A stretch of 64,000 nt of DNA from contig NZ_CP094974.1 of the NCBI RefSeq assembly GCF_022869805.1, positions 558,001 through 622,000 on the forward strand, in the 5' to 3' direction. This stretch comes from Halosolutus halophilus. Its GTDB lineage: Archaea; Halobacteriota; Halobacteria; Halobacteriales; Natrialbaceae. Below the pieces are notes generated by a model that saw only the letters and a program-made list of their open reading frames with translations, had not been told where the DNA came from and made no database searches. Positions 3,642-22,375 of the stretch are shown here, piece after piece (within the stretch, counting starts at the first letter, position 1; each line of letters opens with the position of its first letter). The translations under genes were made by a program, and so were the position numbers.

Positions 3642-3750
3642 AATGATCAGTGTGGCCCCCTCAGCGGTACGTCCAGGGAACGGAGTTACCGAAGCCATCT
3701 ATCCGATAGCTATCAAGAACAGCACGCTGACTACAGGGGATGTATTCATC
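3642..3750 (+). repeat. Palindromic cassette-border element, copy 1 (degenerate left arm)
   Basis: The right arm is clear: GCACGCTGACTACAGGGGAT at 3722-3741, followed by GTATTCATC. The interior carries GGAGTTACCGAAGCC and then ATCAAGAACAG, shared with copies at 6180, 8436 and 16586. The left arm (from 3642) is eroded. This is the leftmost copy seen. Confidence 0.6.
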
Positions 3751-3801
3751 AAGCGGGTATCGCCCATTCCAGCGGATTCAGAGCGAAGTAAATGTGCGAG
3801 T

Positions 3802-6060: not shown

Positions 6061-6152
6061 TTGCGTTTTCTGTATCCAGTACGCCGTTTTTGACAGCGGT
6101 TCGGGAGTTCGGTCAGAGTCTGCCGAATAGAAGGCGCGAATGTGGTACGCAA
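6061..6152 (-). repeat. Palindromic border element, copy in inverted orientation
   Basis: Read on the minus strand: left arm GCGCCTTCTATTCGGCAG, interior CGAACTCCCGAACCGCTGTC and AAAAACGG, right arm CGTACTGGATACAG. This matches the interior of the copies at 6867 and 7574 and shows that this copy is flipped relative to most others. It lies directly after the DUF1254 gene and about 26 bases from the next copy. Confidence 0.7.
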
Positions 6153-6177
6153 TCTGGCTCGATTTGCGTAAGGGATG

Positions 6178-6270
6178 ATCGCTCAGTGTAGGGCAAGGAG
6201 TTACCGGAGCATCCATCGAGTCGTACAGAATCTGTCAAAAGTCGCCTGCTGAATATAGAGCATGAGTTCA
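6178..6270 (+). repeat. Palindromic border element
   Basis: Right arm CCTGCTGAATATAGAGCATG followed by AGTTCAGCAC; interior GGAGTTACCGGAGC and TCTGTCAAAAG. The left arm (CGCTCAGTGTAGGGCAAG) is diverged. It forms a back-to-back pair with the inverted copy at 6061-6152. Confidence 0.7.
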
Positions 6271-6334
6271 GCACAAACTCGTTGAAGTGTTTGAAAGGGG
6301 CGCTTGACCCTATCGCTCAGTTTCCGGGGTCTCA

Positions 6335-6866: not shown

Positions 6867-6955
6867 TCATGCGCTGTGTATTCAGCAAGATCTGGGCGAA
6901 CTCCCGGATCACTGTCAAGAACGGTGTGCTGAATACAGAGGATGAGTTCAGCACG
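6867..6955 (+). repeat. Palindromic border element (well-preserved reference copy)
   Basis: Left arm TCATGCGCTGTGTATTCAGC then A; interior GAACTCCCGGATCACTGTCA then AGAACGG; right arm GTGCTGAATACAGAGGATGA then GTTCAGCACG. The inner arms TGTATTCAGCA and TGCTGAATACA are perfect inverted repeats, and each arm also contains its own GCTGAA/TTCAGC mini-palindrome. Confidence 0.8.
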
Positions 6956-7074
6956 ACAACCACATTTGTTTCACGCCGAAGCCGATGAACCAGCCGTTCG
7001 ATAGATCTGCACATCTATCGCTCGCCATGCGTCGTTCGGTACTATTATTCCGTCGAGTCTCCACTCGAATAACA

Positions 7075-7518
7075 ATGCCCTCCAACTGCTCATCAGCCGC
7101 TCACCGAGACAAACGACCGTCACGGCGACGGTTTCTTGCTACTCTCGGGGCTGTAGCGTCAGTGTCGACTGCTGGCTGTAGTGACGTTCTGTCGGATAGT
7201 TGGTCCAGTAATACCGACGAACCCGGCGAGGTGAGTGTCGAGAACAGGACTTCTTCGAAGGCGGAGATAGCAGTTCGTGTCATAGACAGCGAGGATGAGA
7301 CCCTTTTCAGCCGTATTTTCACTCTCAGACCCGAAGAGATGACGTCACATGGCGCTATCGAAACAACCCCTTCGAGGGTGCATGCATTTACCGCAAATGG
7401 CGCTTCCCGTACGTGGCGGTATGCCCCCGATTTGCCGGCCGATTTCGACTGTGAACCAAAAGATATCGGGCTTACGCTGCACCAAGATAACACGATCGAA
7501 CCGTGGTACGACTGCTAA
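7075..7518 (+). CDS. Tat lipoprotein, function unknown
   Basis: A 147-residue protein with a Tat leader (RPSRRRFLATLGAVASVS) and lipobox STAGC, placing the lipid-anchored Cys at residue 35; the mature protein would sit on the outer face of the membrane. A Ser/Asp/Glu linker follows, then a compact beta-rich domain (VSVENRTSSKAEIAVRVIDS...). Short haloarchaeal lipoproteins of this shape are common and uncharacterised. The ATG at 7075 fits the leader; the frame is open upstream but that part is not leader-like. It is a single-gene unit between palindromic elements, and the smaller lipoprotein at 18643-19104 in the same array has the same design. Confidence 0.75.
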   Translation: MPSNCSSAAHRDKRPSRRRFLATLGAVASVSTAGCSDVLSDSWSSNTDEPGEVSVENRTSSKAEIAVRVIDSEDETLFSRIFTLRPEEMTSHGAIETTPSRVHAFTANGASRTWRYAPDLPADFDCEPKDIGLTLHQDNTIEPWYDC

Positions 7519-7573
7519 CTACAGACCCTGTACTGAGCACTCGAGCCGCCAAACTGAGTCGGCGTCAATCTAT

Positions 7574-7666
7574 GCTACATTCGCGCCCTGTATTCAGCAG
7601 CGTACATACGAGCTGCCGAACGCTTGTCAGAAAGGGCGTACTGAATACAGAGGCCGAGTTCAGCAC
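7574..7666 (+). repeat. Palindromic border element
   Basis: Left arm GCTACATTCGCGCCCTGTAT then TCAGCA; interior CGAGCTGCCGAACGCTTGTC then AGAAAGGG; right arm CGTACTGAATACAGAGGCCG then AGTTCAGCAC. This copy links the outer left arm form (TACATTCGCGCCC) with the inner TATTCAGCA word. Confidence 0.8.
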
Positions 7667-7774
7667 GATCCGATCTTTCGTTTCTCGACTCTGTCTCTAA
7701 ATCGGGAGTCAGAACTGTTCGCAATCGGGCTTGATCAGGTTTTCCAACCCGAATTGCCCCTGGGTGTCATACAC

Positions 7775-8122
7775 CTATTCGAGTTCAGTGGTAACGAACT
7801 GGTACAGTTTCTCGACGCGGTCGTTCGGATGATAGCGGACCGTTTCCGTTCGGTCATCGTACTCAACAAGGCCAGCGGCTTCCAGTTTCGGCAGTTTGGA
7901 ATGATGCAGATCGAGACGAAGTCGTCCGGTGTCTATCATTCCACCTGAGTCTGGGGGAGGATTCTCGGCTGCCACGTGTTCGAGGAGGTCGTCCACCGTA
8001 ACAGTATTACTCTCACTTTCGATTAACTGGCCGAGAACTGACCGACAGTGTTGACTGGCGACGATGTGCAATGCTGACTCGGTCGATACGGTATGAGTGA
8101 AGCTACTCATTGGTTTTCCCAT
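7775..8122 (-). CDS. DUF7344-type winged-helix protein, probable regulator
   Basis: A 115-residue protein with the pattern of the haloarchaeal DUF7344 domain: a first helix with HIVASQHCRSVLGQLIES, an acidic middle (VDDLLEHVAAENPPP), a Leu/His-rich recognition helix (RLRLDLHHSKLPKLEAAGLV) and a wing (EYDDRTETVRYHP). Such domains are winged helices thought to bind DNA; targets are unknown. The start could be the first ATG (MGKPMSS) or the second, four codons on. It stands alone between two palindromic elements and reads against the flanking genes. Confidence 0.8.
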   Translation of the reverse strand: MGKPMSSFTHTVSTESALHIVASQHCRSVLGQLIESESNTVTVDDLLEHVAAENPPPDSGGMIDTGRLRLDLHHSKLPKLEAAGLVEYDDRTETVRYHPNDRVEKLYQFVTTELE

Positions 8123-8435: not shown

Positions 8436-8526
8436 TAAGTACAGGTGAAGCAGGTAACGGAGCGACGACCGATTTATCCGGGAGATAGCAGAAACGGCGT
8501 GCTGAATACAGAGGATGAGGTCAACA
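8436..8526 (+). repeat. Palindromic border element
   Basis: Right arm GTGCTGAATACAGAGGATGA then GGTCAAC (outer part changed from GTTCAGC). Interior GGTAACGGAGCGACGACCG and AGCAGAAACGGC. The left arm (GTACAGGTGAAGCAGG) is diverged. Confidence 0.65.
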
Positions 8527-8595
8527 TCGCGGCTACTTGTGTATTTAATCCCACCCTTGACAAGTTATAAATGGCAAGACAGTGGCCGTAATACA

Positions 8596-9506
8596 ATGGC
8601 CTCCAATAACAATGATGCATTATTCGGACGACGGTCAGACCGAAGACGTTTCATCATCGGTATAGCGACCGCCCTTTTCGCCTGTATGTTTCTGACCGGG
8701 GCGTACGCCCGTGGACGATGGATGCAAGACGTCATGGGACCGCAGGTGTACCCCGTACTGTTCGTTCTTCTCGTCGGTGGCGGACTGGCAATCTGGAACG
8801 CCTATTGGAACGACGGATTGCTCCTAAGTTGGCTGTTGATCTTTAGCCTCGTCACGCCCTGGTTGCTCCATTTCAATCTTCAGTACGGTATTCTGGAGCC
8901 GTTCATATCGGCGGGGTACGTGACGCTGGCGCTCGTCGTCGGGACGGTCGGCCATCTGATCGGTGTCGGACTGCGGCGAGCGCTGGTCGGGGATACGGAC
9001 GGGGAGGCTTTCAAACGAGCGATGGGGGTACTCGGATCGGCCCCGGACGAGTCGATTCGATGGAGCCTCCTCTTGAGTGGTCTCTTCGTTGGTACAGCGG
9101 TACTGGTCTACGTGGCCGAACCGTATCGGAATCAATTGGTGTCGGTGGTGTATCCAGTCCTGTGGTTCTACCCGATCGGTGTCGTAACGTGGGAGACCGT
9201 GCTCGGGGTCGGATTCGTTCTTGGTTGGCTCGGGCTCGCAACGTGGCCCGCCTCACGTGGAAACGGAGTACTCATTAGCTGGGGAGTCATTTTTGCACCG
9301 ATATTCGGAACGATCCTTACGTACAGCCTATTGGAGGCGTTTTTACCCCCGATCTGGGTGGAACACTCGCGGACGACGTGATTGTCGCGCTACTCGTCGC
9401 CGTATCCACCGCCGTCATTCTGGGAACACTGGGATTCTTCGTCGGGAAGCTACTTCATCGTACAGGCGCCGTTCGACGACCCGATCGCGACGGGATGAGT
9501 ACGTAG
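8596..9506 (+). pseudogene. Multi-pass membrane protein with an apparent single-base frameshift near its end
   Basis: The first frame codes for 261 residues from an ATG giving MASNNNDALF: a basic start (RRSDRRRF), then six to seven hydrophobic helices. It stops after ...WVEHSRTT at 9381. In the next frame the sequence continues without a break as GVFTPDLGGTLADDVIVALL, another membrane helix, GKLLHRTG and a stop at 9504-9506. The join falls around 9330-9345 at a run of T and C, as expected for a one-base loss (natural or sequencing). The repaired protein would be about 302 residues. No family is recognised; it may be related to the protein at 6335-6790. It is the only gene between two palindromic elements. 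Confidence 0.6.
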
Positions 9507-9644
9507 GAACGGTCGTTCTGCATCAGTCGTTACGGTTGCACCTCAGTCAGCACACAACGTCTGAATCGGAATGAGTCGATGTTTCAGACGCTCCACCGAC
9601 GGCCCCCAGCTCCCGGTTCCATCGACCGCGAACTCGATCCGACC

Positions 9645-9734
9645 GATACGCGCCCTGTATCCAGCAAGAACTAATCGAACTACTGGATCACTGGTAAGAG
9701 CGGCGTGCTGAATACAGAGCATGAGTTCAGCAGA
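9645..9734 (+). repeat. Palindromic border element
   Basis: Left arm CGATACGCGCCCTGTATCCA then GCA; interior CGAACTACTGGATCACTGGT then AAGAGCGGC; right arm GTGCTGAATACAGAGCATGA then GTTCAGCAG. One mismatch (TATCCAGCA against TGCTGAATA) would be a G-U wobble in the minus-strand transcript. Confidence 0.75.
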
Positions 9735-9848
9735 GCGTTACCTACAGGCACACATCCATCAATAGTGACAGAGAGCATCAGATATTTTCGGTCACTAAAC
9801 CGTCGATCAGGGATCATCTATTCTGCAGTCCCGCTCTTCTGAGGTCTC

Positions 9849-10757
9849 TTACCGCCTCATATCGAGAATGAGTTCGGCACACGTTTCCGGATGGCCCAAC
9901 CAGGGGAGGTGTCCGGCATTCACCGTCTCAAGACGACTGTCCGGAATTCGGTCGACGGTATTGCGCACAACGTCTGGCCCTCCGAGTGGATCGTTCTCGC
10001 CCCAGGCCACGAGGGTCGAGGGTTGCAGGTCAGCCAACTCATCTTCGCGCAGCCGCGTTGAGGGATGCCACCCACGAAGCCTGAGCAATGAATTAAACTC
10101 GCTGATATCGACAATATCTGACCGAGGCTTCCGAGCCTGGGTCACGAACACCCGTATCAACGATGGATAATCCTGAATCGTTTCATCCTCACCGAATATT
10201 TCGAATTGTTCAACGACACCATCCTCGCTCGATTCCTGGAGCCGAGCCAACAGTCGGTTGAGCAAGGGCACTGAAAACAACCGAAGCGGAATCGGCGGGC
10301 GGGTTCCCGGGAAGGTTGGGACGCTTCCAATCAGCGTCAGGTGACGGACTCGATTGGGCCGAGCCAACGCGAACACCATGCTCCAGTACCCCCCTGCGGA
10401 ATTACCGACGAGGTCTACCTGTTCTATCCCCAACCTGTCGAGAATTCCTTCAAGAACGGTAACAGCCGTTTGTCGAAAAGTTTGGGCGGTGTAGGTATGG
10501 TCGCCACTGAGTCCGTAGCCAGGACGGTCTGTAGCAATGGTCCATGTGTCGTCAAGATGAGCGATCAACGGGGTAAACAGTGCCCCGAACGCTCCAGTTC
10601 CATGGACGCAGAAGACAGGCACATCGTCGCTCCCCTCATCACCAGTTTCGATAACATGAGTTCTGACCTGTGGATGGTCGAGATCTATAAATTGTGATTG
10701 TGGATCGACGCTCATTTCCTCAAACAGTTGATCTTGGGCTGTCTCGAAACTCGCCAT
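9849..10757 (-). CDS. Alpha/beta-fold hydrolase
   Basis: A 302-residue cytoplasmic hydrolase with the full catalytic set: HGTGAFG near 52-58 (oxyanion strand), DRPGYGLSG near 77-85, nucleophile elbow GNSAGG with Ser120, acid Asp256 in WGENDPLGG and His283 in NAGHLPWLG. The cap region (residues ~145-225) is helical. The fold covers esterases, dienelactone or epoxide hydrolases and meta-cleavage product hydrolases; the substrate cannot be read from the sequence. The start is an ATG giving MASFETAQDQ. It is the only gene between the elements at 9645-9734 and 10842-10936. Confidence 0.88.
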   Translation of the reverse strand: MASFETAQDQLFEEMSVDPQSQFIDLDHPQVRTHVIETGDEGSDDVPVFCVHGTGAFGALFTPLIAHLDDTWTIATDRPGYGLSGDHTYTAQTFRQTAVTVLEGILDRLGIEQVDLVGNSAGGYWSMVFALARPNRVRHLTLIGSVPTFPGTRPPIPLRLFSVPLLNRLLARLQESSEDGVVEQFEIFGEDETIQDYPSLIRVFVTQARKPRSDIVDISEFNSLLRLRGWHPSTRLREDELADLQPSTLVAWGENDPLGGPDVVRNTVDRIPDSRLETVNAGHLPWLGHPETCAELILDMRR

Positions 10758-10841
10758 GTGTTACCACCACTCATTCTCGTATAGGGTACTGTAGTATTAA
10801 ATATGAGGAAGCCGGATTTCGATCATCTTTCTGGTCCGTGT

Positions 10842-10936
10842 CTGCTGAATGCGCGCCTTGTATTCAGCAGATGTCGACCGAATTGCCGTGATGCTGTCAC
10901 AAACGGCCTGCCGGAGATAGAAAATACGTGCAGCAT
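10842..10936 (+). repeat. Palindromic border element
   Basis: Left arm CTGCTGAATGCGCGCCTTGT then ATTCAGCAG, in which the GCTGAAT/ATTCAGC mini-palindrome is perfect. Interior CCGAATTGCCGTGATGCTGT then CACAAACGGC. The right arm (CTGCCGGAGATAGAAAATAC, GTGCAGCAT) is diverged. Confidence 0.7.
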
Positions 10937-11095
10937 AAGGTCTTTGTCCCTTTTATGTGCAATTATCGATTATTCAATTATGTGTCTGTAACTCGGTACT
11001 ACAGGCTGTTTGTCCTGATTGACTGAAATTCTTGATCACGATATGTCTTCTATTTAGTGCGTTGAAAATATGAAAAATACTTACCAGTTCGATTG

Positions 11096-11453
11096 ATGCG
11101 ATCACTTCTGCCCTCCAGGCGGAGCATCCTCGCAAGTGCTGGTGTCGCCAGTATCGCCGTCCTCGCCCCAACCGTCGAATCACTGGTGGCACTGGACCTC
11201 GACAGCGGCACAGAACAGTGGCGCCACAGCGTCGGCCAGCAACCCTGGCCGATCGCGCCGGTCGTCCACGACGGTATCGTCTACGCTCTCGGGTGGCGCC
11301 GGGATTGGACCCCTTCGGACCGGAGGCAAGCGGTGGCAGTACGACGTCGAAGGTACCGTCGTGGAGGGCGTGGCCGTCGCCGATGGCGCCGTCTTTGCTG
11401 TCACGTCCGACCCGGAGGGGCCGTCAAACGTCTACGCACTGGACCCCGCCTGA
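11096..11453 (+). pseudogene. Decayed PQQ-type beta-propeller protein
   Basis: A leader (MRSLLPSRRSILASAGVASI) is joined directly to propeller-blade sequence (SLVALDLDSGTEQWRHSVGQ, then APVVHDGIVYAL), the typical PQQ-like repeat motif. After VYAL the frame breaks; the next frame continues as GGAGIGPLRTGGKRWQYDVE and ends with PSNVYALDPA and a stop. The whole remnant encodes about 119 residues, whereas haloarchaeal Tat-secreted PQQ-repeat proteins usually exceed 350. Most blades are therefore missing, and the signal peptide and blade fragment were joined by an internal deletion. It is alone between palindromic elements. Confidence 0.7.
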
Positions 11454-11490
11454 GGTCGCGGGGAATCGGTTCGCCGCATCCGTGTCTGAT

Positions 11491-11591
11491 CTGCTCTCCA
11501 AGAGACGCGCCTTCTAGTCAGCAAGGGGTGACCAACTCACCGAGATGGTGTCAGAAGCAGCGTGCTGACTACAGAGGGTGAATGCAGCACG
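11491..11591 (+). repeat. Palindromic border element with covarying arms
   Basis: Left arm GACGCGCCTTCTAGTCAGCA, interior CCAACTCACCGAGATGGTGT then CAGAAGCAGC, right arm GTGCTGACTACAGAGGGTGA then ATGCAGCAC. Both arms carry the same change: TAGTCAGCA on the left and TGCTGACTA on the right, against TATTCAGCA/TGCTGAATA elsewhere, so pairing is kept. Confidence 0.75.
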
Positions 11592-12151
11592 ACCGACAAT
11601 CGCCAGAGTCCCTCGCGTCGGAGATACCCTGCCTCCCGCAAGGAATTCTCGGCCGGACCAGGCCGTATGCTCTGGAATTCGAACGCCAAGGCGGTTCACC
11701 CACGCTTACGAGCAAAATGGCGTGATTACGAGTAGCCGAGCACGAAACCGTCGGGCGTCGTCGATGGGTCGTCGTCGACGGCGATGTCGAGGTCGGCGAC
11801 CGCCCCGTCGTCGCCGCCCAGATGGTGGGCCCGGGCGGCCCACGGCTCACTGGTGGTCGAGCCTCTGCGCCGCGCCCGATCGCCGAGGGAGTTCCCGGCC
11901 GCGTCGGACCGGTCGACCGCGAGAGCTCGGAACGCGCCGCTCGCATCGGCGGGAGATCGACTCCGCTTCGCGGTTGATTGTCCGGGCAGCGGACACCCGT
12001 TCTGCTCGCTCGCGTGTGGAACCCGTGACTGCGCCGAGAACCGTCGGTCGACACGTCGACTCGTCGTTCGCCGGCTGTTCTTTCACACCCCTCACCGAAC
12101 AGATACTATTTAGCCGAAAGAATAACTTCCCTCTATTACTGTTACCTACGC
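11592..12151. other. Gene-free region with a start-less minus-strand open frame
   Basis: On the minus strand from about 12090 to 11736 one frame is open and ends GGDDGAVADLDIAVDDDPST...DGFVLGYS-stop. The last part has haloarchaeal acidic character but the frame has no usable start, so it is at most the 3' remnant of a lost gene. The AT-rich stretch at about 12100-12150 is the likely promoter of the downstream glmU-like gene (a TATA-like CTATTTAG about 40 bases before its ATG). Confidence 0.4.
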
Positions 12152-13321
12152 ATGACTATTCGTTCTGCGATCGTCCTCGCCGCTGGCGAAGGCCAGCGGC
12201 TCCGGCCGCTCACGACGAACCGGCCGAAGCCGATGCTCTCCGCCGGCCCGAAACCCATTCTGGAACACGTCTTCGACGAGTTGATCGACGCCGGCGTGAC
12301 TGATATTACGGTCGTCGTCGGCTATCAGCGGAATCGCGTCCAGTCGCACTTCGGGCCCACCTATCGCAACGTCCCGCTCACCTACGTGACCCAGGACAAA
12401 CAGCTCGGCAGCGGACACGCCCTCCTCGCCGCAGAACCGGCTGCCGACGCGCCGACGCTGGTCGTCTACGGTGACCAGCTCATCGACGAACGGCTCATCC
12501 GTGACGTTACCGTGAGTCACGAGTCGGCCCTGGCGACCCTCGGCCTCGTGCAACGGTCGGACGTCGCGGAGTACGGCGGCGTGTTGGTCGACGACGGCCG
12601 CGTCACCGACATCGTCGAGAACCCGCACGACGATCGGGACTACCGTCTCAACGCGGGGGTGTACACCTTCGAGCCCGAGATCTTCGACGTCGTCCGGAAC
12701 ACCAGCCCGCGTGCGGGCGAACACTCGCTCGTGGACGCCCTCTCGGCCGCCCTCGAGGACGGCGCGACGCTCCGCGGCGTGGTCTCCGAGGGCGTCTGGG
12801 TCGACGCGACCTACCCCTGGGACCTCCTCGAGATCGCCGACGGTCTCCTCGACACCAACGGCGGCGAGAGCCAGATCGCTCACAGCGCGTCGGTCCACGA
12901 CGACGCGACGATCGTCGACCCCGTCGTCGTCGAACCGGACTGCGTCATCGGCCCGGGGGCCGTCGTCGGGCCGAACGTCTGTCTCGGCGAGAACGTGACC
13001 GTGGCGTCGAACGCGGTCGTCGACCACTCGGTCGTCGAGGCCGATACGCGCGTTTGCGCGAACGCGACGCTGGTCGACTGCGTGACCGGACGCGGCGTCC
13101 ACGTGGGCCCGGGCTCGACCGTCGTCGGCGGCCCCGGCGACGTGGCAGTCGGCGCCCGGATCCACCGGAACGAAGGGCTCGGAGCCGTCCTCGCCGATCG
13201 GGTTCGGGACGAAGGGGGGGTCACGTATCGGCCGGGAACGATCGTCGGCGCCGACGCGGTGGTCCGCGCCGGGTCGACGGTCGGCGGGACGATCGAGAAC
13301 GAGACGGAGGTGCGTGCCTGA
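12152..13321 (+). CDS. GlmU-like sugar-1-phosphate nucleotidyltransferase with left-handed beta-helix domain
   Basis: A 389-residue protein. The N-terminal ~235 residues are a nucleotidyltransferase: LAAGEGQRLRPLTTNRPKPM at 9-28 is the signature loop with its Arg and Lys, followed by YGDQL, NAGVYTFEPEIF and EGVWVDATYPWDLL. The C-terminal ~130 residues show hexapeptide repeats (CVIGPGAVVGPNVCLGENVT and more) of a left-handed beta-helix. This layout fits the archaeal bifunctional GlcN-1-P acetyltransferase/UDP-GlcNAc pyrophosphorylase, or a UDP/dTDP-glucose pyrophosphorylase paralogue. The stop overlaps the ATG of glmS by one base (TGATG), so the two are translated as an operon, supporting a role in UDP-GlcNAc supply for glycoconjugates. 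Confidence 0.88.
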   Translation: MTIRSAIVLAAGEGQRLRPLTTNRPKPMLSAGPKPILEHVFDELIDAGVTDITVVVGYQRNRVQSHFGPTYRNVPLTYVTQDKQLGSGHALLAAEPAADAPTLVVYGDQLIDERLIRDVTVSHESALATLGLVQRSDVAEYGGVLVDDGRVTDIVENPHDDRDYRLNAGVYTFEPEIFDVVRNTSPRAGEHSLVDALSAALEDGATLRGVVSEGVWVDATYPWDLLEIADGLLDTNGGESQIAHSASVHDDATIVDPVVVEPDCVIGPGAVVGPNVCLGENVTVASNAVVDHSVVEADTRVCANATLVDCVTGRGVHVGPGSTVVGGPGDVAVGARIHRNEGLGAVLADRVRDEGGVTYRPGTIVGADAVVRAGSTVGGTIENETEVRA

Positions 13322-15123
13322 TGTGTGGCATCATCGGCTACGTCGGGACCGACCGCGGCGACGACGCGCTCGAGGTCCTCCTCGACGGCCTGTCACAGCT
13401 GGAGTATCGCGGCTACGATTCGGCGGGCGTCGCCCTCGCGGATGGGGGGATCGACGTCCACAAACGCGAGGGGGAACTCGCGGCGCTCGAAGCCGCCCTC
13501 CCGCGAGAGCGGTTCGACGGTGATTCGATCGGGATCGGCCACACCCGCTGGAGCACGCACGGGCCCCCCTCGGACGCCAACGCACACCCCCACACCGACG
13601 CCACCGAACGGGTCGCGGTGGTTCACAACGGCATCATCGAGAACTACCAGTCGCTGCGCGACGACCTGGCGGCCGCCGGGATCACGTTCCAGAGCGACAC
13701 CGACACCGAAGTCGTCCCGCACCTGATCGGGCGTTCTCTCGACGAGGGGCTGGATCACGAGGCCGCGTTTCGCGCGGCGATCGATCGCCTCGAGGGGAGT
13801 TACGCGATCGCCGCCGTCTTCGACGGCACGGAGACGGTGTACGCGGCGCGCCACGAGTCGCCGCTCGTCCTCGGCGTCGCCGACGACGGCCACTTCCTCG
13901 CGAGCGACGTGCCGGCGTTCATCGAGTACACCGACCAGGTGATCTACCTCGCGGACGGGGAGTTCGCTCGGCTCACGCCGGACGACCTCGTGATCACCGA
14001 CGCGAACGGCCAGGTGACCGACCCGTCGGTCGAGACGATCGCCTGGGACCCGGAGGACGCCGGTAAGAGCGGCTACGACCACTACATGCGCAAGGAGATC
14101 AACGAACAGCCCACGGCGCTCCGGGAGTGTTTCCGCGGCCGGCTCGACGAACTGACCGGGCGGGTCGAACTGCCCGAACTCGGGGATCTCGAGCCGCGTC
14201 GACCGGTCACGTTCGTCGCCTGCGGCACCTCCTATCACGCCGCCATGTTCGGCACACGGCTGCTCCAGGACCGCGGGGTCCCCGCGCAGGCGTTCCTCGC
14301 GAGCGAGTTCGACGCGGACCGGGTCCCGATCGACGCCGAGTCGCTCGTCGTCGGCGTCACCCAGAGCGGCGAGACGGCCGATACGATGCGGGCGATCCGC
14401 GAGGCCAACAGCGTCGGTGCGACGACGGTCGCCGTGACGAACGTCGTCGGCAGTTCCGCGGCGCGGGAGACGGACGACGTGCTGTACATCCGGGCGGGCC
14501 CCGAGATCAGCGTCGCCGCGACGAAGACGTTCGCGAGCCAGCAGGCCGCGCTGACGATGCTCGCCGCCGCGCTGAGCGACCAGCGATCGCGCGCCCTCGT
14601 CCGGGAGCTCCGGGCGGTCCCCGACCAGATCCAGTCCGTGCTGGACGCCTCGCGGGCGCGCGAGATCGCCGAGACCTACCACGGTGCCGAGGCCTACTTC
14701 TTCATTGGCCGCGGCTATCACTACCCCGTCGCGCTCGAGGGGGCCCTGAAGATGAAAGAGATCACGTACACCCACGCCGAGGGGTTCGCCGCCGGCGAAC
14801 TGAAACACGGCCCGCTGGCGCTGGTGTCGGAGGAGACTCCGGTCTTCGCGGTCGTCACCGGCGACGGGAAACTCGCCGAGAAGACGATCGGCAACGTCAA
14901 AGAGGTCGAGGCCCGCGGCACGCCGGTCGTCGCCGTGACCGACGGCCAGTCGGACGTCGAGCGCTACGCCGATCACGTCCTCGAGGTGCCGGCGACGTCG
15001 GCCGTCGCCAGTTCGATCGTCGCGAACGTGCAACTGCAACTGGTCGCCTACTGGACCGCGCACGAACTCGGCCGATCGATCGACAAACCGCGGAACCTGG
15101 CGAAAAGCGTCACCGTCGAGTAG
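13321..15123 (+). CDS. glmS: Glutamine-fructose-6-phosphate aminotransferase (isomerizing)
   Basis: A 600-residue enzyme that makes glucosamine-6-phosphate from fructose-6-phosphate and glutamine, the entry step to UDP-GlcNAc. The Ntn amidotransferase domain starts with MCGIIGYVG (Cys2 becomes the catalytic N-terminal residue) and contains QLEYRGYDSAG, GHTRWSTHG and HNGIIENY. Two SIS domains follow (FVACGTSYHAAMFGTRLL and TQSGETADTMRAI; then GRGYHYPVALEGALKMKEI and HAEGFAAGELKHGPLALV), and the C-terminus ends DKPRNLAKSVTVE as in the family. Length is normal. The gene overlaps the upstream glmU-like gene by one base. Confidence 0.97.
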   Translation: MCGIIGYVGTDRGDDALEVLLDGLSQLEYRGYDSAGVALADGGIDVHKREGELAALEAALPRERFDGDSIGIGHTRWSTHGPPSDANAHPHTDATERVAVVHNGIIENYQSLRDDLAAAGITFQSDTDTEVVPHLIGRSLDEGLDHEAAFRAAIDRLEGSYAIAAVFDGTETVYAARHESPLVLGVADDGHFLASDVPAFIEYTDQVIYLADGEFARLTPDDLVITDANGQVTDPSVETIAWDPEDAGKSGYDHYMRKEINEQPTALRECFRGRLDELTGRVELPELGDLEPRRPVTFVACGTSYHAAMFGTRLLQDRGVPAQAFLASEFDADRVPIDAESLVVGVTQSGETADTMRAIREANSVGATTVAVTNVVGSSAARETDDVLYIRAGPEISVAATKTFASQQAALTMLAAALSDQRSRALVRELRAVPDQIQSVLDASRAREIAETYHGAEAYFFIGRGYHYPVALEGALKMKEITYTHAEGFAAGELKHGPLALVSEETPVFAVVTGDGKLAEKTIGNVKEVEARGTPVVAVTDGQSDVERYADHVLEVPATSAVASSIVANVQLQLVAYWTAHELGRSIDKPRNLAKSVTVE

Positions 15124-15436
15124 TCGCACCGACCGGGAGCCGACCCGGCAGCCGACGGCGCGATCGGAACCCCAGTCCAGGGCCTGGCGACGAGTGTGCC
15201 CGCCGCGAGCAGTCCGGCGCTCGCCGTCCTCCGTCCCGGACCGTCTCGATCGCACACCGGCTCACCGACGTGAGCGGGGCGGTGGGGGACGAGCGGCTGC
15301 GGTCGTCCCTCCCGTCGAGTCCAGTCCCGGAGTGGGCGAGGGGTGCCGGCCACGCGATGGCTGGGGCTCACGACCGACGGGATGGAAATTCGAGAGAGAA
15401 CAGGAGACGCACTGCTCGCGCTACGACCGGCCGGCG
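15124..15436. other. Intergenic, nothing recognised
   Basis: About 310 bases of GC-rich sequence between glmS and a convergent small gene. No T-rich terminator, repeat or small zinc-finger frame was found. Confidence 0.45.
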
Positions 15437-15565
15437 TTACGACCCGACGACGATCCGCTCGTGCTCTTCGATCGCCTCGATCGCGGCGTCGACTTCTGAC
15501 TGAGTCGCCTCCGAGAGTTCCGGCTCGCACTCCGCTTCGTCCGCGTGTCGTTCGTTCTCGGTCAT
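15437..15565 (-). CDS. Tiny acidic protein, function unknown
   Basis: A 42-residue frame, MTENERHADEAECEPE... ending EEHERIVVGS, very rich in Glu and Asp, with a probable amphipathic helix in the second half (QSEVDAAIEAIEEHERI). No domain is recognised. The acidic composition is what haloarchaeal real genes look like, and an AT-rich stretch lies just upstream on its coding strand, but such a short frame could also be chance. Confidence 0.45.
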   Translation of the reverse strand: MTENERHADEAECEPELSEATQSEVDAAIEAIEEHERIVVGS

Positions 15566-15740
15566 CACCAGTCGCGTACTCGTTTTCCGATCCGAGACAT
15601 ATGTTTTGTGGGAAACACTAACTCGATCGCGAGTACCGACCCACGACGTGTTCGCCCACCTCGGCGACGCGGTATCGTGCGCGGGGAGACCGACGGTGGG
15701 GCCGCCCGGATCGAGCGCTGGTGTCGCTGGCGCGACCGGG

Positions 15741-15941
15741 CTACGGCGTCTCGGGGGCCGTCGCCGGTAGACAGGCGTCGCTGCAGTAGTGGTACGCGTA
15801 CACGTCCGCGCCGTCGCGGATCCGCCACGTGAGCCGTCGTTCGCGGGCGCCGATCCGGGCGCCACAGGCGTGACAGGTGGCCGCCTGCTGCACTCGGCGG
15901 TGGCTTGAGGGCCGTTCCGGTTCGCTGTACTCGTACTCCAT
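15741..15941 (-). CDS. Small zinc-finger protein (treble-clef-like)
   Basis: A 66-residue protein with two Cys pairs: CHACGARIG at residues ~23-31 and YCSDACL at ~52-58, separated by a beta-rich stretch (RRLTWRIRDGADVYAYHY). This CxxC...CxxxC pattern with an Arg/Trp-rich hairpin is typical of the many small haloarchaeal zinc-finger proteins, some of which act as regulators; no function can be assigned here. The first ~20 residues (YEYSEPERPSSHRR) look disordered. A second tiny zinc-finger gene is at 16325-16462. Confidence 0.7.
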   Translation of the reverse strand: MEYEYSEPERPSSHRRVQQAATCHACGARIGARERRLTWRIRDGADVYAYHYCSDACLPATAPETP

Positions 15942-16324
15942 AGGCGGGCTACGTCGCCCCTCTACAAGTAAGAAGGGATGAATTTCAGCACAGGATACTT
16001 GATCGGCCGCCCGTCAGTGGCTGCTCGCGACGGCAGTCCCGCAGCGGGCCGTCCATCGGCCAGCACGCGAGCTCCCACCATCGCTGCGGCTCGTTGCGAG
16101 AACTGCGTGGAGTTACTGTCGGCCGGAACCGCTCAGGATGCGGTCGGGCGCTCCGCATCGCGTGCGTGCCGACGAGGGCGCTGGTCGTGAGCGGTGGGAT
16201 TCGTCGTCCCAGCCTTCGTTTCGAATGGAACACATAAGTGAAAAGCAATTAAATTAATTGTACTATCATGATGCTTTACGAAAAGATAATATCATTCCCG
16301 GCGGGATACTGAGCGGAAGGGAAG
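15942..16324. other. Intergenic with AT-rich promoter-like patch
   Basis: No gene recognised. An AT-rich stretch (16229-16290, including AAGCAATTAAATTAATTG) stands out against GC-rich surroundings and probably provides the promoter of the 45-residue zinc-finger gene that follows. Confidence 0.4.
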
Positions 16325-16462
16325 ATGAGTACCCACTCCGCTCCGTCCACCATTTGTAGCGTGTGTCAACGGCCGATCGGCGGTCACGAATCCCAGTATC
16401 GCGGCGAACCAGCCCACCCTGACTGTCGGGCTCGCCTCCTCGCGACCGAGTCGCCGCGGTGA
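16325..16462 (+). CDS. Tiny one-zinc protein (45 residues)
   Basis: An ATG at 16325 opens a 45-codon frame: MSTHSAPSTI, CSVCQRPIGGHESQYRGEPA, HPDC and RARLLATESPR. CxxC at residues 11-14 and HxxC at 35-38 form one complete zinc site of the LIM/A20-like half type. The composition, the zinc-site geometry and the AT-rich upstream region argue for a real gene. Haloarchaea carry many such proteins under 70 residues; roles are mostly unknown. Confidence 0.6.
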   Translation: MSTHSAPSTICSVCQRPIGGHESQYRGEPAHPDCRARLLATESPR

Positions 16463-16585
16463 GCGCACGCCCACGTTATGGCAGACGCCGTCCAAGTTGC
16501 GACGCCGGGCCGGGTCGCGGCCCGGATTTGCAACTCCCGGCTAACTGGCCCTGTGAACCCCTTTGTCGTTGAGAGGTACTCACCG

Positions 16586-16674
16586 GTCGTGTTCTGTACA
16601 GGCGAACCAGTTAGCGGAGCGCCCATCAACCTAGTTGTTAGCGGTCGAGTGCGGCGTTCTGAATACCGAGACTA
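16586..16674 (+). repeat. Palindromic border element (degenerate)
   Basis: Left arm GGTCGTGTTCTGTACAGGCG then AAC; interior CAGTTAGCGGAGCGCCCATC; right arm GCGGCGTTCTGAATACCGAG then ACTAG. The interior matches the copy at 6178 (GGAGTTACCGGAGCATCCAT). Confidence 0.5.
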
Positions 16675-16902
16675 GATCTATCAAAATAGCCTTCTCGCTC
16701 GAAACTGCGTGTGCTCGCGTTCTGTGGCTATTTCGGCGAGGGAGAGCCAACAGACGGTCGGACCGACTGTTAGCAGTCTACTGACTCGGCCCACTCCGCG
16801 ACGGGTTCCCTCTCGGAAAAGACGATCGTCCCGCCGTCTCGTTCGGCGAACGTGGTCGGAACTGGACGGCCACCTCGTCGGTGATCGGTGCTACCTCACC
16901 GA

Positions 16903-17673
16903 TCACTCCTTCCGCGCAACGAGCGAGACGCTCTTCACCCCGTACGTCGAACACGCGTTCGCCGCCTGCTCGGAGACAAATTCGTAGTCGGTATTCTCGC
17001 TGACCGCTACGACGTCGAACCCAGCCGCGTCGACCAGGTCGGTGTAGCGATCGACCTGCTCGGCTCCGCCGATGCAAGCTGCCCAGAGGTCCGCATCGGT
17101 CTTGATACTCTCGGGCATCTGCTCTTCGCTGATAATGTCGGAAATGGCGAGTCGGCCCCCTGGCCGCAGCACCCGGAACGCCTCCTCGAAGACGCGATCC
17201 TTCTCGGCAGAGAGGTTGATGACCCCGTTCGATATCACCGCGTCGAACGACCCGTCCTCGAACGGGAGGGTCTCGATGTACCCGTGGCGGAAGTCGACGT
17301 TGTGGAAGCCGTTGTCCGCTGCGAGGTCACGCGCCTTCTCGATCTGCTCTCCGGTCATGTCGATACCCGTAACCGTTCCCGTCTCGGTGACGTGCAAACC
17401 GGCGACGAAGGCGTCCATCCCCGACCCGCTGCCGAGGTCAAGCACGTCTTCGCCCGGGTCGAGTTCCGCCAGATCGAAGTAGTAGCCGACACCCGCGAAC
17501 GAGTCGATAGCCGCGTCCGGAACGTACTCGAGATCCTCGGGGTCGTAGCCGAGGCGTTCGGCGAGGTCGCGGCCCGTCTCGAAGTGGAATTCGGCGTCGG
17601 ATGACTCCGCGACGTCACGGTACATCGACTTGACTTCGCGTTCGAGTTTGTCCGTGTCGAGTGAGTGATTCAT
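16903..17673 (-). CDS. SAM-dependent methyltransferase, ArsM-like
   Basis: A 256-residue class I methyltransferase. Motif I is VLDLGSGSGMDAF (77-89), followed by GIDMTGEQIEKARDLA (motif II region), FRHGYIETLPFEDGSFD and ISNGVINLSAEKDRVFEE, close to the arsenite methyltransferase branch. Two Cys at positions suited to ArsM As(III) binding are visible (Cys200 in AACIGG, Cys241 in NACSTYG), but the N-terminal Cys cluster of classical ArsM is absent (GVGYYFDLAEL occupies that place). It may therefore methylate another thiophilic or organic substrate. Its ATG is 14 bases after the stop of the OsmC-family gene on the same strand, so the two are probably co-transcribed. Confidence 0.85.
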   Translation of the reverse strand: MNHSLDTDKLEREVKSMYRDVAESSDAEFHFETGRDLAERLGYDPEDLEYVPDAAIDSFAGVGYYFDLAELDPGEDVLDLGSGSGMDAFVAGLHVTETGTVTGIDMTGEQIEKARDLAADNGFHNVDFRHGYIETLPFEDGSFDAVISNGVINLSAEKDRVFEEAFRVLRPGGRLAISDIISEEQMPESIKTDADLWAACIGGAEQVDRYTDLVDAAGFDVVAVSENTDYEFVSEQAANACSTYGVKSVSLVARKE

Positions 17674-17686
17674 CGGTGCTCACCGG

Positions 17687-18292
17687 TTAGTCGTCGCCCG
17701 CCACCTGGGCGGGGGTATTGATGGTCATCTCGACATCCTGTCCGAGCGAGACGAGCGTGTAGACGGGTGCTCGCCGTGCCCACTCGTCGATCAGGTCTTC
17801 GTCGAGGTTCTCACCTTCGATTTCGATTTCGGCGGTGACGTTCTCGAAGACCGCGTCGGCGTCGTTGAGATCCGCGAGGCTAAAGAGCACGGCGGGATCG
17901 AAATCGGACCAGACGCGTGTCTGGAGGTGGTCGATATCCACGCCGTGTGCGACGGCATTGATGCTGATGCCGACGTTAATGCAGGCAGCCAGCGCGGAGA
18001 GCGCGGCTTCGATCGGTTCTATCCGATCGGTCGCACCGACCCAGCCACCGGCTTCCAGCACTTCCCTCCACCCGCCGTAGGGAACCGTGTATTCGCGGGT
18101 CTCGCGGGCGATCGTTTCGCCACCGAGTTCGTAGCTATCGATCCTCGCCAGACTGTGGGCACACGTCCCCTCGTAGGTCGCGGATGCCCCGAGACCGAGT
18201 TGGACTTCTTCGGGATGTTCTGCCGCGTGGTCGGCGAACGCTTCGAGTGTTTCGAGTTCTACACCGTGTGTGATTCGCTGATCATCGGTCAT
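17687..18292 (-). CDS. OsmC family protein
   Basis: A 201-residue OsmC/Ohr-fold protein. Recognisable parts are GLGASATYEGTCAHSLARI (32-50), the VGATDRIEPIEAALSALAAC helix ending at Cys104, and the C-terminal beta strand ending VEMTINTP. OsmC and Ohr proteins reduce organic hydroperoxides with two Cys; here the candidates are Cys44 and Cys104, and spacing differs from classical Ohr, so peroxidase activity is uncertain. The start is the ATG giving MTDDQRITHG; the frame is open 13 codons further. It precedes the ArsM-like methyltransferase with a 13-base gap, suggesting an operon for thiol or metalloid stress. Confidence 0.88.
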   Translation of the reverse strand: MTDDQRITHGVELETLEAFADHAAEHPEEVQLGLGASATYEGTCAHSLARIDSYELGGETIARETREYTVPYGGWREVLEAGGWVGATDRIEPIEAALSALAACINVGISINAVAHGVDIDHLQTRVWSDFDPAVLFSLADLNDADAVFENVTAEIEIEGENLDEDLIDEWARRAPVYTLVSLGQDVEMTINTPAQVAGDD

Positions 18293-18486
18293 GGTTTTGT
18301 GTCGCCTTTCGGCTAAACACAGTACGATCACGGAGATAATGTAGCTACTCCGTGGGGTTTTGGCAGTTACTGCCAGCTATGCAGCCACTGACCGAGAGTC
18401 ACCAGGTGCTACCGGGAACCGGCTGAGATATCGATTGTCCAACTGGCCGCCAGCCGACAGGAAACCGTTGAGGGACGGACCCGATC

Positions 18487-18562
18487 AGCCCGTTCGGGCT
18501 CTGTTGAAATTCTCACTGGTCGATACAAATGGCGTGCTGAATACAGAGGATGAATGCGGCAC
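18487..18562 (+). repeat. Palindromic border element (truncated left arm)
   Basis: The right arm is intact: GGCGTGCTGAATACAGAGGA then TGAATGCGGCACG. The left side is CGGGCTCTGTTGAAATTCTC and the spacing between arms is shorter than in other copies. The left side also resembles the end of an IS6-type element, so the copy may have been altered by an insertion. Confidence 0.6.
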
Positions 18563-18642
18563 GTCGCTTCAGTTCGATCGAACTGACCGCTCCGACGTCA
18601 TCTGACCGGAAGATATATGTCAGTCTGTACGCGTGTTGCCTC

Positions 18643-19104
18643 ATGTCCTCCATCTCACGCCGGAAAGTACTGCGATCAGGAGGTGTCTCCGTCACGATGG
18701 GACTGGCCGGTTGTACGTCGATTCTACGTACCTTTCAGGACGACCCCCGCTTGGTCGAACTCGGAGCCTTCAACTTCGACCCGGAAGAGCACGTGGTTTA
18801 CGTGTTATTGATAAAAGAGGGCGAGCCGGTGTATTGGGAGAGACTGGCGCTCGGTCCCTACGATTCCGACGCAGATTCTGATGGGGGAGCGTTCGACGGC
18901 TATCCGACCGAGTCGGGACCCTACGTACTCTATGTGTGGCGGGACGATCAAGCGCGAACGGACTGGCAGCGGCTCGATTTCCGCGAATACGACACGTCCT
19001 GTCTCGGGGTTACCGTTATGATCGGTGACCCATTTGCAGACCGCGGCGAGATCCATGTACACCATCATTCCGATTGCCGCGTCGGGAGCGAAACTGATAC
19101 CTGA
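18643..19104 (+). CDS. Small Tat lipoprotein, function unknown
   Basis: A 153-residue protein: Tat motif ISRRKVL, hydrophobic stretch RSGGVSVTMGLAGC with lipid-anchored Cys24, then a single compact domain (LVELGAFNFDPEEHVVYVLL, ... GPYVLYVWRDDQARTDWQRL...). The mature part is rich in Asp, Tyr and Trp and looks beta-stranded; I do not recognise a family, but its design matches the lipoprotein at 7075-7518. The ATG at 18643 gives a proper leader; the open frame upstream overlaps the palindromic element and is not leader-like. It is alone between two elements. Confidence 0.75.
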   Translation: MSSISRRKVLRSGGVSVTMGLAGCTSILRTFQDDPRLVELGAFNFDPEEHVVYVLLIKEGEPVYWERLALGPYDSDADSDGGAFDGYPTESGPYVLYVWRDDQARTDWQRLDFREYDTSCLGVTVMIGDPFADRGEIHVHHHSDCRVGSETDT

Positions 19105-19150
19105 CTAGTCGACGCCGAGCGCTCGCTACCCGCACTGATCAGGGAGTACC

Positions 19151-19248
19151 GTGTGCCATATTCGCGCTTTGTATCTCGCACGCTTCGCTCGACCTATCCA
19201 GCAGTTAGCAGAATGGGCGTGCAAGATACAGAGGGTGTATGCAGCAGC
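19151..19248 (+). repeat. Palindromic border element with covarying arms
   Basis: Left arm GTGTGCCATATTCGCGCTTT then GTATCTCGCA; interior CAGCAGTTAGCAGAATGGG; right arm CGTGCAAGATACAGAGGGTG then TATGCAGCAG. The inner words TATCTCGCA and TGCAAGATA pair except for one G-U-type position, while both differ from the usual TATTCAGCA/TGCTGAATA. Confidence 0.7.
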
Positions 19249-19383
19249 GTACCAACCTATCATGACGGACAACGCGGTGGTTTGCTGTTCCGAGTGTGTA
19301 GACACTCCATGGTCCAGACGTAGGTTGCCAATCAGGATGCTACGCGCAGCTATTTAGGGGTAGATAGCCTTCTTAAGTCAAGG

Positions 19384-19854
19384 ATGATCTTGAAAGAGAC
19401 CACAACCGTTGAGGCGCTTCAAAAAGACGTCTATCGATTTTTCGAGGAGATGGAAGAGAACTATGAGCCATGGCACCCTGATCACATCACGTTCCGCTGG
19501 ACAGAGGGGGATGGGTTGGAACAGGGCGCTGAGGCCTATTTCGAGGAACGTATTGCGGGAAAGTTACAGAAGAAGACGGTAAAGTTCGTAAAGGTAACTC
19601 CCGATCGATACATTGAGTTCAAGCCGACATCACTGCTGGTTGGGCTGCTTATGCCTCAAATCAGTTTCGCGATCGATACTCACTCGGACGGTTGCGAACT
19701 CACCCAGCAAATCAAAGTACGAACCGGACCGATCGGTGCTTGGCTCAACAAGAGAGAATTTGACGCCGTTCGGACGCACATGCGAGAAGAAGGCGAGAAT
19801 TTGAAACGCATACTCGAAAATGAGGATCGAGTCCCCTCAGGAAAGAAAGCGTAG
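19384..19854 (+). CDS. SRPBCC (START-like) domain protein
   Basis: A 156-residue protein with the Bet v 1/START-like layout: N-terminal strand and helix (VEALQKDVYRFFEEMEENYE), a curved sheet (HITFRWTEGDG... AYFEERIAGKLQKKTVKFV... YIEFKP... GCELTQQIKVRTGP) and a long C-terminal helix (REFDAVRTHMREEGENLKRI). Such proteins bind lipids or other hydrophobic ligands or act as cyclases/dehydratases; no catalytic signature is obvious. The start is an ATG just after an AT-rich stretch (CTATTTAGGGGTAGATAG). It is the only gene between two border elements. Confidence 0.75.
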   Translation: MILKETTTVEALQKDVYRFFEEMEENYEPWHPDHITFRWTEGDGLEQGAEAYFEERIAGKLQKKTVKFVKVTPDRYIEFKPTSLLVGLLMPQISFAIDTHSDGCELTQQIKVRTGPIGAWLNKREFDAVRTHMREEGENLKRILENEDRVPSGKKA

Positions 19855-19890
19855 GTGATGAGTCAAAGAGGGTTCTTTCAGTTCTGGTTT

Positions 19891-19920
19891 TGCTGTATGT
19901 GCGCGTTCTATTCAGCACGG
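19891..19920 (+). repeat. Solitary left arm of the palindromic border element
   Basis: TGCTGTATGTGCGCGTTCTA then TTCAGCACGG matches the left arm of the copies at 10842 and 11491. No right arm follows within 150 bases. This is the last copy seen, so it marks the right end of the element-rich stretch. Confidence 0.6.
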
Positions 19921-19994
19921 CTGCTAAAACCTATCACCATTTTAGGGTTTCAACAAGGCCCCTGTTCGAGACCACGCTCACAACGCTGGGAGAG

Positions 19995-20819
19995 TCACTT
20001 CACGACGGATCCGGACGTGGGTGGTCGCGCCTCGCCTTCGAAGAATGCATACATCGATTCCGCCCACTCGTGAACCGTCGGTGCGTCGGTATCGATCACC
20101 GCCTGGACCGCCCCGCTGTCTTGCTTGTACAAGCTGATGACGACCCGGTCATCGAGAAGGCCGATTCCGTACGGAGGGAGTTCGTCGTGCTCTAGAACCG
20201 TAAAATTATCTCGGTTCACCATCTCTGAACTGCGCTCCGGGTACGTCGAAAAAAAGTACGTGTGACAGCTTGGACGGTCAACCAACGTTATGTCCACCCC
20301 GTCCTGTATCAGTTGACGGAGCACGTCCAGACAGGGCTCCATCAAGGCGACCTCGGGTCGAAGAAATCGGAACGTGGTCGTCTCCTGGAGAAACGACTCG
20401 AATCGGTTCACCGGGCGGTACGGCGAATCGGGCTCGGCGACGGTTACGGTCATCTCTGACCACGTCTCGATCGTGAATTCGCTGACCTCGTCTGGGAGCC
20501 AGTGCCAGACGTCACGCAACTCCCGCTCGGTTTCGACGAGGTCGATCAGGTCCTCCATCCCGGACGCGATCGTCTCTCCCAGCCGCGTTGCCACGTACTG
20601 GTATCCCTCCGTACGGATCCAGGTACGGGCTTCGAATTCGCGCAGCGTCCGTCGAATCGTCGACGTCGACACCCCGGTCAGTTCGCAGAGTTCAGCGCGA
20701 CTCCGAGGACGGTCCGTCAGTGCGCTGAGCGCCTCGACGCGGTGTTCGGATCGCGCGAGATACGCGATGTCTCCGATCGGAGACTCCGTGGGACTCGATC
20801 GTATGCTACCCGGCACCAT
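19995..20819 (-). CDS. FilR1-domain winged-helix transcriptional regulator
   Basis: A 274-residue regulator. Residues ~17-85 form an ArsR/TrmB-like winged helix (DIAYLARSEHRVEALSALTD, then RSRAELCELTGVSTSTIRRT), followed by a linker and a C-terminal ligand domain of the FilR1 (former DUF1724) type (EVALMEPCLDVLRQLIQDGV, VDRPSCHTYFFSTY, LPPYGIGLLDDRVVISLYKQ). These proteins are common in halophilic and methanogenic archaea and are thought to sense small molecules; most targets are unknown. The gene is divergent from nothing recognisable and lies just outside the last border element. The ATG giving MVPGSIRSSP is preceded by an AT-rich stretch on its strand. Confidence 0.88.
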   Translation of the reverse strand: MVPGSIRSSPTESPIGDIAYLARSEHRVEALSALTDRPRSRAELCELTGVSTSTIRRTLREFEARTWIRTEGYQYVATRLGETIASGMEDLIDLVETERELRDVWHWLPDEVSEFTIETWSEMTVTVAEPDSPYRPVNRFESFLQETTTFRFLRPEVALMEPCLDVLRQLIQDGVDITLVDRPSCHTYFFSTYPERSSEMVNRDNFTVLEHDELPPYGIGLLDDRVVISLYKQDSGAVQAVIDTDAPTVHEWAESMYAFFEGEARPPTSGSVVK

Positions 20820-21113
20820 ACTATACCCACATACGCCCTCGCAATAACAATTTCCTCAGTCAAAACAAACGCTTTGAGTCGGAACTAAGACCGAGAATGG
20901 GTATCTCATACCTCAAGTGTCGAGCGACAGCCAGACGTCCTCGCCGAAACTCGTCCACTGTGTAGTCCTGTCCGTACACGCCTTTCACGCTGTTTTTGAT
21001 CGATTTCACGACTTCACTATATTTTCCAAGTAGCTGATAGGAATGCGAGAGCGACGCGTCAGTCGGTGATTGATGTGTGCCTCGTAGCCAGTACGGCTCT
21101 CTCAACGTTATCT
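20820..21113. other. Gene-poor spacer
   Basis: An 81-codon minus-strand frame (20860-21105) is present, ending ILGLSSDSKRLF, but shows no family match and only a weak start, so I leave it uncalled. AT content is higher than in flanking genes. Confidence 0.35.
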
Positions 21114-21230
21114 CTATTTGATAGCACTCTCGGTGTTACGTTCTCGTTCGAACTGAGCAGGTAGCGAAAAGTAAAGGACAATCACAGTACCTATCAGCCC
21201 GCCAACTGCAATTCGAATGGAGTCGACAAC
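21114..21230 (-). pseudogene. C-terminal membrane-helix remnant of an unknown protein
   Basis: A 38-codon minus-strand frame directly after a stop and without a start reads VVDSIRIAVGGLIGTVIVLY then FSLPAQFERERNTESAIK-stop: one clean membrane helix with a charged cytoplasmic tail. It looks like the 3' end of a lost membrane-protein gene. Confidence 0.3.
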
Positions 21231-21340
21231 TCAGCCAAGAGGTGACCTGTGAAGCCCGAAGACCATGATTTTCAGCCCCGATGTCCCGTCCACGATTGAA
21301 TCACTCGGTTACATTCGTTTCACCCATCCAACGTTAGCCC

Positions 21341-21574: not shown

Positions 21575-21585
21575 GCTTTCGAACG

Positions 21586-21954: not shown

Positions 21955-22045
21955 ACGTCCAACGGTATTCGCTGATCTCAGCGAAAAACCTCCGGTTCGG
22001 GCGCTCGAAACCGAAGAACGCGACATCGAAGCACCGTCTGGATGA

Positions 22046-22249: not shown

Positions 22250-22375
22250 CGGCGACATCGGAAACAGACCGCATCAGGTGGCGGTCTGGGTCCCCACACG
22301 ACACGGCCAGTCCAGTGGGCCGGTCTCACCACGCCAGTGCCGACAGCGGGACGAAGCCACCGCGGTCGGGGCCCG

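Follow-up and report, generated by a model that had tools for sequence, protein, structure and literature searches.

Integrons have been reported in archaeal MAGs (PMC9668308); a term search of the available text of that report for Halobacteria returned no mention. The dif modules of Acinetobacter plasmids contain sites on which host Xer proteins act (PMC6449649), and the haloarchaeon Haloquadratum harbours the SMR-A/PATE repeats, which are ∼110 bp long, transposase-free, bounded by inverted ends and without target duplication, and whose mobilisation has been called "enigmatic" (PMC3119063). The open-access sections searched (including those of PMC9668308, PMC7923331, PMC3119063, PMC8371274, PMC11078007 and PMC6449649) gave no description of the system reported here, which is no proof of its being unpublished, and no dedicated single-gene capture system for haloarchaea was found in the same open-access sections.

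The window, a stretch of 64,000 nucleotides of the Halosolutus halophilus genome (NZ_CP094974.1, positions 558,001 to 622,000), carries repeat elements that resemble SMR-A/PATE in being short, transposase-free haloarchaeal repeats, a likeness of description; SMR-A/PATE are, however, described in the text available as repeats inserting into other mobile elements and not as cassette sites (PMC3119063). Arrays of single genes, sites in one orientation, two inverted core pairs around a loop and a tyrosine recombinase are features in common with integrons, as far as the accessible part of PMC9668308 describes them. In contrast to integrons, the haloarchaeal recombinase is not an IntI by family model, is shorter, and lies inside a site and not beside attI; the core boxes also differ, and the pairing of the arms is weakly conserved. 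As in the Acinetobacter dif modules, genes are flanked by Xer-like core sites of alternating orientation and would be mobile as modules (PMC6449649, PMC13141974, as far as available); unlike them, the haloarchaeal elements alternate two core types with different centres, possess a conserved linker and carry a recombinase at the linker position.

The elements and cassette genes of the window are listed in Table 1. The plus strand carries 10 of the 11 elements, and TATTCAGCA, with at most one mismatch, occurs 26 times in the window against 3.2 expected, which is far above chance. A known RNA was ruled out as the identity of the elements by the lack of any Rfam match at E ≤ 0.1 in window 3000–22500. 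Positions 11595–18505 form a gap of ∼6.9 kb in the array without detected elements, partly of higher G+C (68–69% at 12–16 kb), and perhaps hold ordinary genes separating two cassette blocks. The search for relatives of cassette genes in other genomes covered one gene of the window, the hydrolase, close relatives of which are present in 3 of 293 genomes, its own included; the relative in one sampled genome (G104) is not adjacent to elements.

Table 1. Repeat elements and cassette genes in the window
Feature	Position	Strand	Basis
Right half-element, outlying	3691..3753	+	model R1, 27.8 bits
Element copy in opposite orientation to the others of the array (placed at 6061 in the initial annotation)	6066..6140	-	model R1, 59.4 bits
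Right half-element (core2 and end of a different left part)	6225..6276	+	model R1, 41.7 bits, model positions 39-90
Complete element; right core, core2, at 6927-6953	6870..6959	+	model R1, 82.9 bits; exact core2 consensus
Cassette gene, 177-aa frame, lipoprotein-like; later ATG at 7075 may be the true start	6985..7518	+	open frame between two elements; no Pfam match
Complete element	7580..7669	+	model R1, 76.1 bits
Cassette gene, 115 aa, DUF7344	7775..8122	-	Pfam PF24035 over cut-off
Right half-element	8466..8526	+	model R1, 36.9 bits
Cassette gene, 288-aa frame, membrane-protein-like; true start probably ATG near 8596	8515..9381	+	open frame; no Pfam match
Complete element	9647..9734	+	model R1, 77.6 bits
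Cassette gene, 302-aa alpha/beta hydrolase	9849..10757	-	Pfam PF00561 over cut-off
Complete element, degenerate right arm	10850..10938	+	model R1, 54.9 bits
Complete element (placed at 11491 in the initial annotation); core2 at 11563-11589	11506..11594	+	model R1, 57.2 bits
Right half-element	18506..18566	+	model R1, 31.1 bits
Cassette gene, 184-aa frame, lipoprotein-like	18550..19104	+	open frame between two elements; no Pfam match
Complete element (placed at 19151 in the initial annotation), alternative arm type; core2 at 19220-19246	19161..19247	+	model R1, 46 bits

The element model was built from sequence only, using 22 copies. A full element spans ∼200 bp and consists of a left flank, core1 as reverse complement, a linker of ∼38 nt, core2 and a right flank of ∼66 nt. 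Each site is thus an inverted pair of 27-bp cores, core1 being TGCTGAATACAGGGCGCGAATGCAGCA (present as its reverse complement, which ends ...CGCGCCCTGTATTCAGCA as it stands in the element) and core2 being TGCTGAATACAGAGGATGAGTTCAGCA. The arm TGCTGAATAC is common to both cores, while their middles differ (GGGCGC vs GAGGAT). Each core looks like that of a tyrosine recombinase, in that two arms, TGCTGAATAC and one that ends in CAGCA, enclose a short central region. The box of the element consensus that corresponds to the integron R'/R'' box reads GTTCAGC, which departs from the integron consensus (R' box GTTRRRY, R'' box RYYYAAC). Half elements make up many of the copies, and copies standing alone are also frequent; in the genome of the window, whole elements of ∼200 bp are alike although their flanks are unlike.

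In some copies a core is interrupted by an IS or by a short insert that shares its ends. The left-half class GCGTCTAAACACGGCC... proved to be the end of such an IS (∼1 kb, 284-aa transposase frame) and was set aside as lying outside the system. Core1 is interrupted by this IS at six places of the own genome (near 847, 872, 884, 1096, 1920 and 3710 kb; L076-L078, L081, L083, L085), apparently with duplication of 9 bp, and the IS therefore seems to target the elements. A repeat of ∼250 bp also occurs at or beside core2 copies of the same genome (842122-842397, 1083134-1083406, 3018562-3018826, 3318960-3319237 and 4943137-4943414); at 842122 its ends are like those of the ∼1-kb IS, of which it is probably a miniature derivative.

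The initial annotation had held that the two arms of these elements change together. The arm sequences it quoted, and their places, are correct: TAGTCAGCA (11515–11523) with TGCTGACTA (11563–11571), TATCTCGCA (19172–19180) with TGCAAGATA (19220–19228) and, on the minus strand, TATTCGGCA (6121–6129) with TACTGGATA (6073–6081). The joint change itself holds fully for a single variant copy (11506) but not for the pair at 19161, which was quoted as covarying and is not fully complementary because of one C.A mismatch. Comparison of the 9-mer arms of the six complete plus-strand copies revealed perfect pairing in two (6870 and 11506), one C.A mismatch each at 7580, 9647 and 19161, and two mismatches with one wobble at 10850, while the arms of the minus-strand copy at 6066 form six Watson-Crick pairs, two wobbles and one mismatch.

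When covariation was examined in the best 150 of 258 matches, drawn from 41 sequence stretches, 83.5% of the arm cells were paired as compared to 81.7% after shuffling of the right-hand letters; the observed level was reached by none of 500 shuffles, in a test that ignores the relatedness of copies. Two-sided change is seen at 8 of the 12 arm pairs; the three most variable pairs leave 67, 56 and 42 of the 150 sequences unpaired, and the joint counts at alignment columns 11/91 (G.C 65, C.C 47, C.G 11, G.G 8) are close to independence. Part of the pairing excess is due to one arm type (CTTG/CAAG) occurring with related linkers. Collapsing the copies by linker similarity at 75% left 40 representatives with 409 paired cells against 397.5 (sd 4.6; p 0.014), and at 65%, six representatives with 61 against 56.8 (p 0.06); the excess is thus measurable in the larger set, but small, and it shrinks once related copies are collapsed. 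Consensus folding placed a hairpin inside core2 and not between the arms, and there are no two-sided changes in that hairpin. The arm covariation, being measurable but weak, is therefore poor evidence of a conserved fold, and the view that the paired substitutions reflect selection on a folded single strand, together with folded-strand recognition, is not established by pairing of this strength over 150 copies.

The genome of the window (5.06 Mb) contains at least 150 elements by model. Elements are present in 207 of the 293 sampled genomes of the same order (67 of 88 genera), and a phylum-wide sample gave 24 positive genomes among 196, all 24 labelled with the family or order of the window's genome; plasmid records with similar elements include Natrinema, Haloterrigena, Natronorubrum and Haloprofundus. 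In the stretches of the own genome that were analysed, 94 of 115 pairs of neighbouring elements point the same way and the other 21 are oppositely oriented; in Haloprofundus the neighbours agree in 79 of 81 pairs. This likeness of orientation within arrays is strong and is unlike the insertion without fixed orientation of a MITE, whereas the one orientation of sites, together with borders in the cores, is as in a cassette array of integrons. The median gap between clustered elements is 0.7–0.8 kb, and a single small gene often lies between consecutive elements; the Haloprofundus salinisoli plasmid stretch, for which the gene table is incomplete, has many short intervals with one annotated gene in either orientation. 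Genes in and around the arrays are small and encode hypothetical and membrane proteins, regulators, hydrolases, stress proteins and toxin-antitoxin systems. Along the arrays, core2, gene and inverted core1 alternate, so that the core sites are inversely oriented like the 28-bp core sites of dif modules.

The gene of a tyrosine recombinase of ∼240 aa (PF00589 over cut-off) lies within the element, flanked by core1 and core2, and not beside an attI at the end of the array as in integrons. With the PF00589 profile, the own genome yielded 12 tyrosine recombinases, and a search of 20 element-rich genomes revealed short ones located in arrays. The 241-aa query had matches in 67 of 293 genomes, and element halves lie near 21 of the best 30 recombinase loci (17 of the first 20); in most element-associated loci the flanks, as read, show the gene preceded by core1 and followed by core2, with the inverted order found sometimes. 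In a scan of named genomes, 16 of 22 recombinase loci were accompanied by a half element no more than 250 nt away, on one side or both; this set shares species with the first, and contig ends truncate some of its loci. Elements occur in each of the 21 genomes whose recombinase reaches 66% identity or more, as compared to 186 of the other 272; this close group is present in 21 of the 207 element-bearing genomes, most of which are without it. The copy in the own genome has an in-frame TAG, and a scan of viral contigs with the recombinase found no relative.

The catalytic residues, which we take to be R, K, H, R, W and Y, are conserved in 20 aligned recombinases, as is a CxCGYC motif. The protein scored 20.9 bits with the integron-integrase model TIGR02249 (cut-off 265) and is thus not of the IntI family; scores with NF040815 (47.7 bits, cut-off 220) and NF007370, a tyrosine-type DNA invertase (22.6, cut-off 221), were also low. 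The predicted structure, of moderate confidence (mean pLDDT 67), has the archaeal XerA 5hxy as its best fold match, the integron integrase 2a3v being the seventh. The fold and the weak matches to NF040815 and NF007370 make the protein XerA-like, whereas scores far below the curated cut-offs and the conserved CxCGYC motif set it apart from XerA and from catalytic-domain-only recombinases. A wider related group (about 40–60% identity) occurs on haloarchaeal plasmids and chromosomes with no elements detected alongside (H14-H18, H20; L165-L171). A 311-aa tyrosine recombinase, presumably SNJ2-like, lies intact in an array of the own genome at 3.71 Mb (3713838-3714770, minus; L085); it was rejected as the partner enzyme, being present in 37 of 293 genomes, 24 of these with elements, which is not above the background of 207 in 293, and having elements near 3 of its 30 loci.

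Three single cassettes are common to different replicons. The plasmid of Haloprofundus salinisoli (NZ_CP083664; hs_p, G092:C2) shares 147043-147878 with 80988-81823 of NZ_MN918442 (mhr1_p) at 94.7% identity, 177524-177992 with a chromosomal array of genome G149 at 92.4%, and 178108-179625 with a plasmid of G149 at 94.3%. At the 5' borders of all three, core2 positions 10–26 match in 16 or 17 of 17 places, and the preceding linker in 10 to 18 of 38. Two 3' borders lie within core2 with the linker largely retained (30 and 31 of 38), while the 3' break of the first cassette (147043-147878) is placed at core1, because the gene side of core1 matches in 17 of 18 places and the linker in only 18 of 38. 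These comparisons confine the breaks to core1 and to the central part of core2, which suggests that both cores are used. The picture is less clear for a fourth cassette pair, its gene side at the 3' element matching in only 4 of 18 places; paralogous cassettes of the own genome have similar borders. Haloprofundus array territory holds 43 paired homology endpoints, of which 22 are within the cores (15 in core2, 7 in core1) and 21 outside them, whereas the chance for a random position is 2.4% for core2 and 2.3% for core1 (about 5% together). Examination of 13 collinear indels between Haloprofundus replicons found none at an element and no empty site, and no excision or insertion event was seen in the sequence comparison.

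The layout and directionality of the arrays, the cassette borders in the cores and the recombinase gene inside the sites can be read from the DNA itself. They suggest that the repeats are probably, though by no means surely, recombination sites of a haloarchaeal gene-cassette system, the cassettes of which would be exchanged by the small recombinase at the cores; the best reading of such an exchange would be integron-like in effect and dif-module-like in geometry. We infer that the enzyme is the ∼240-aa recombinase, that its substrates are double-stranded cores, and that the short-linker site arose by deletion from the one carrying the recombinase. The recombinase, encoded at the linker position of some sites, most likely joins core2 to core2 and core1 to core1, so that genes would be excised, inserted or exchanged as cassettes with site orientation preserved. 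Since neighbouring core2 copies are direct repeats, core2 × core2 recombination would excise a gene and its site as a circle, which could insert at another core2 in the same orientation; core1 × core1 recombination would move linkers, the recombinase included, relative to genes. The border data fit both. Against the cassette reading stand the 21 of 43 endpoints outside cores, the fourth cassette pair with its unclear 3' end, the 13 collinear indels of which none is at an element, the close recombinase in 21 of 207 genomes, the hydrolase relative of G104 without adjacent elements, the TAG in the own copy and the 21 of 115 opposite pairs.

Several of these points would also suit an insertion element mobilised by a tyrosine recombinase, with L-recombinase-R as the autonomous form and L-linker-R (about 205 bp) as a MITE-like derivative inserting between genes of gene-poor islands, the genes then not being cassettes. 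By eye, the linker looks like the leader of the recombinase unit fused to its trailer; the likeness of whole ∼200-bp elements does not extend to their flanks, half elements and isolated copies are frequent, and the hydrolase has a relative elsewhere without elements. Such insertion does not, however, account for one element orientation per array where gene orientation is mixed, nor for inter-element DNA common to replicons and ending in cores, and it is considered unlikely. Homologous recombination or gene conversion between the repeated elements, with the recombinase as a passenger, is quite improbable. Haloarchaea readily recombine, the repeats supply short homology, and arm types go with linkers; the breaks, however, lie inside a core of ∼27 bp between copies with unlike linkers (10 to 18 of 38 identical), which is shorter than homology usually needs, and the recombinase gene is repeatedly embedded in sites.

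The initial annotation had drawn a comparison with attC sites, which integrases recognise as folded strands. In a strict integron, an integron integrase would act on the bottom strand of each site, folded by pairing of its arms. These elements share with attC the order of an outer and an inner arm, a loop, and again an inner and an outer arm; there are cassette arrays, and the pairing excess is small but real. The comparison with attC stands so far as putative recombination sites lie in cassette arrays and shared cassettes end inside them, but it fails for the enzyme, at 20.9 bits against a cut-off of 265. The near independence of the arm variants and a consensus hairpin within core2, devoid of two-sided changes, further make this folded-strand reading highly improbable. 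The data fit two double-stranded cores of a Xer-like recombinase, arranged as an inverted pair, as well as or better than a folded strand.

Haloarchaea exchange genes heavily. An integron-like system with its own small recombinase inside the site may so be a haloarchaeal route for swapping single genes. It is, in our judgement, an evenly balanced proposition that the Halobacteria possess a cassette system that arose apart from integrons, in which a bipartite site houses its own minimal tyrosine recombinase in its loop and the two cores, with their different centres, form a natural cassette-exchange pair, a system that would be order-wide and would move single genes between chromosomes and plasmids. 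If true, it would help to explain the patchy small-gene content of haloarchaeal islands and plasmids, would represent a second, independent case of integron-like adaptation, and would offer a compact recombinase with two paired sites, open to direct testing.

The window also contains a separate 41-nt repeat of 88–90% identity ahead of three similar reading frames (25361–25401, 34861–34901 and 63865–63905), its copies being spaced by ∼9.5 and 29 kb.
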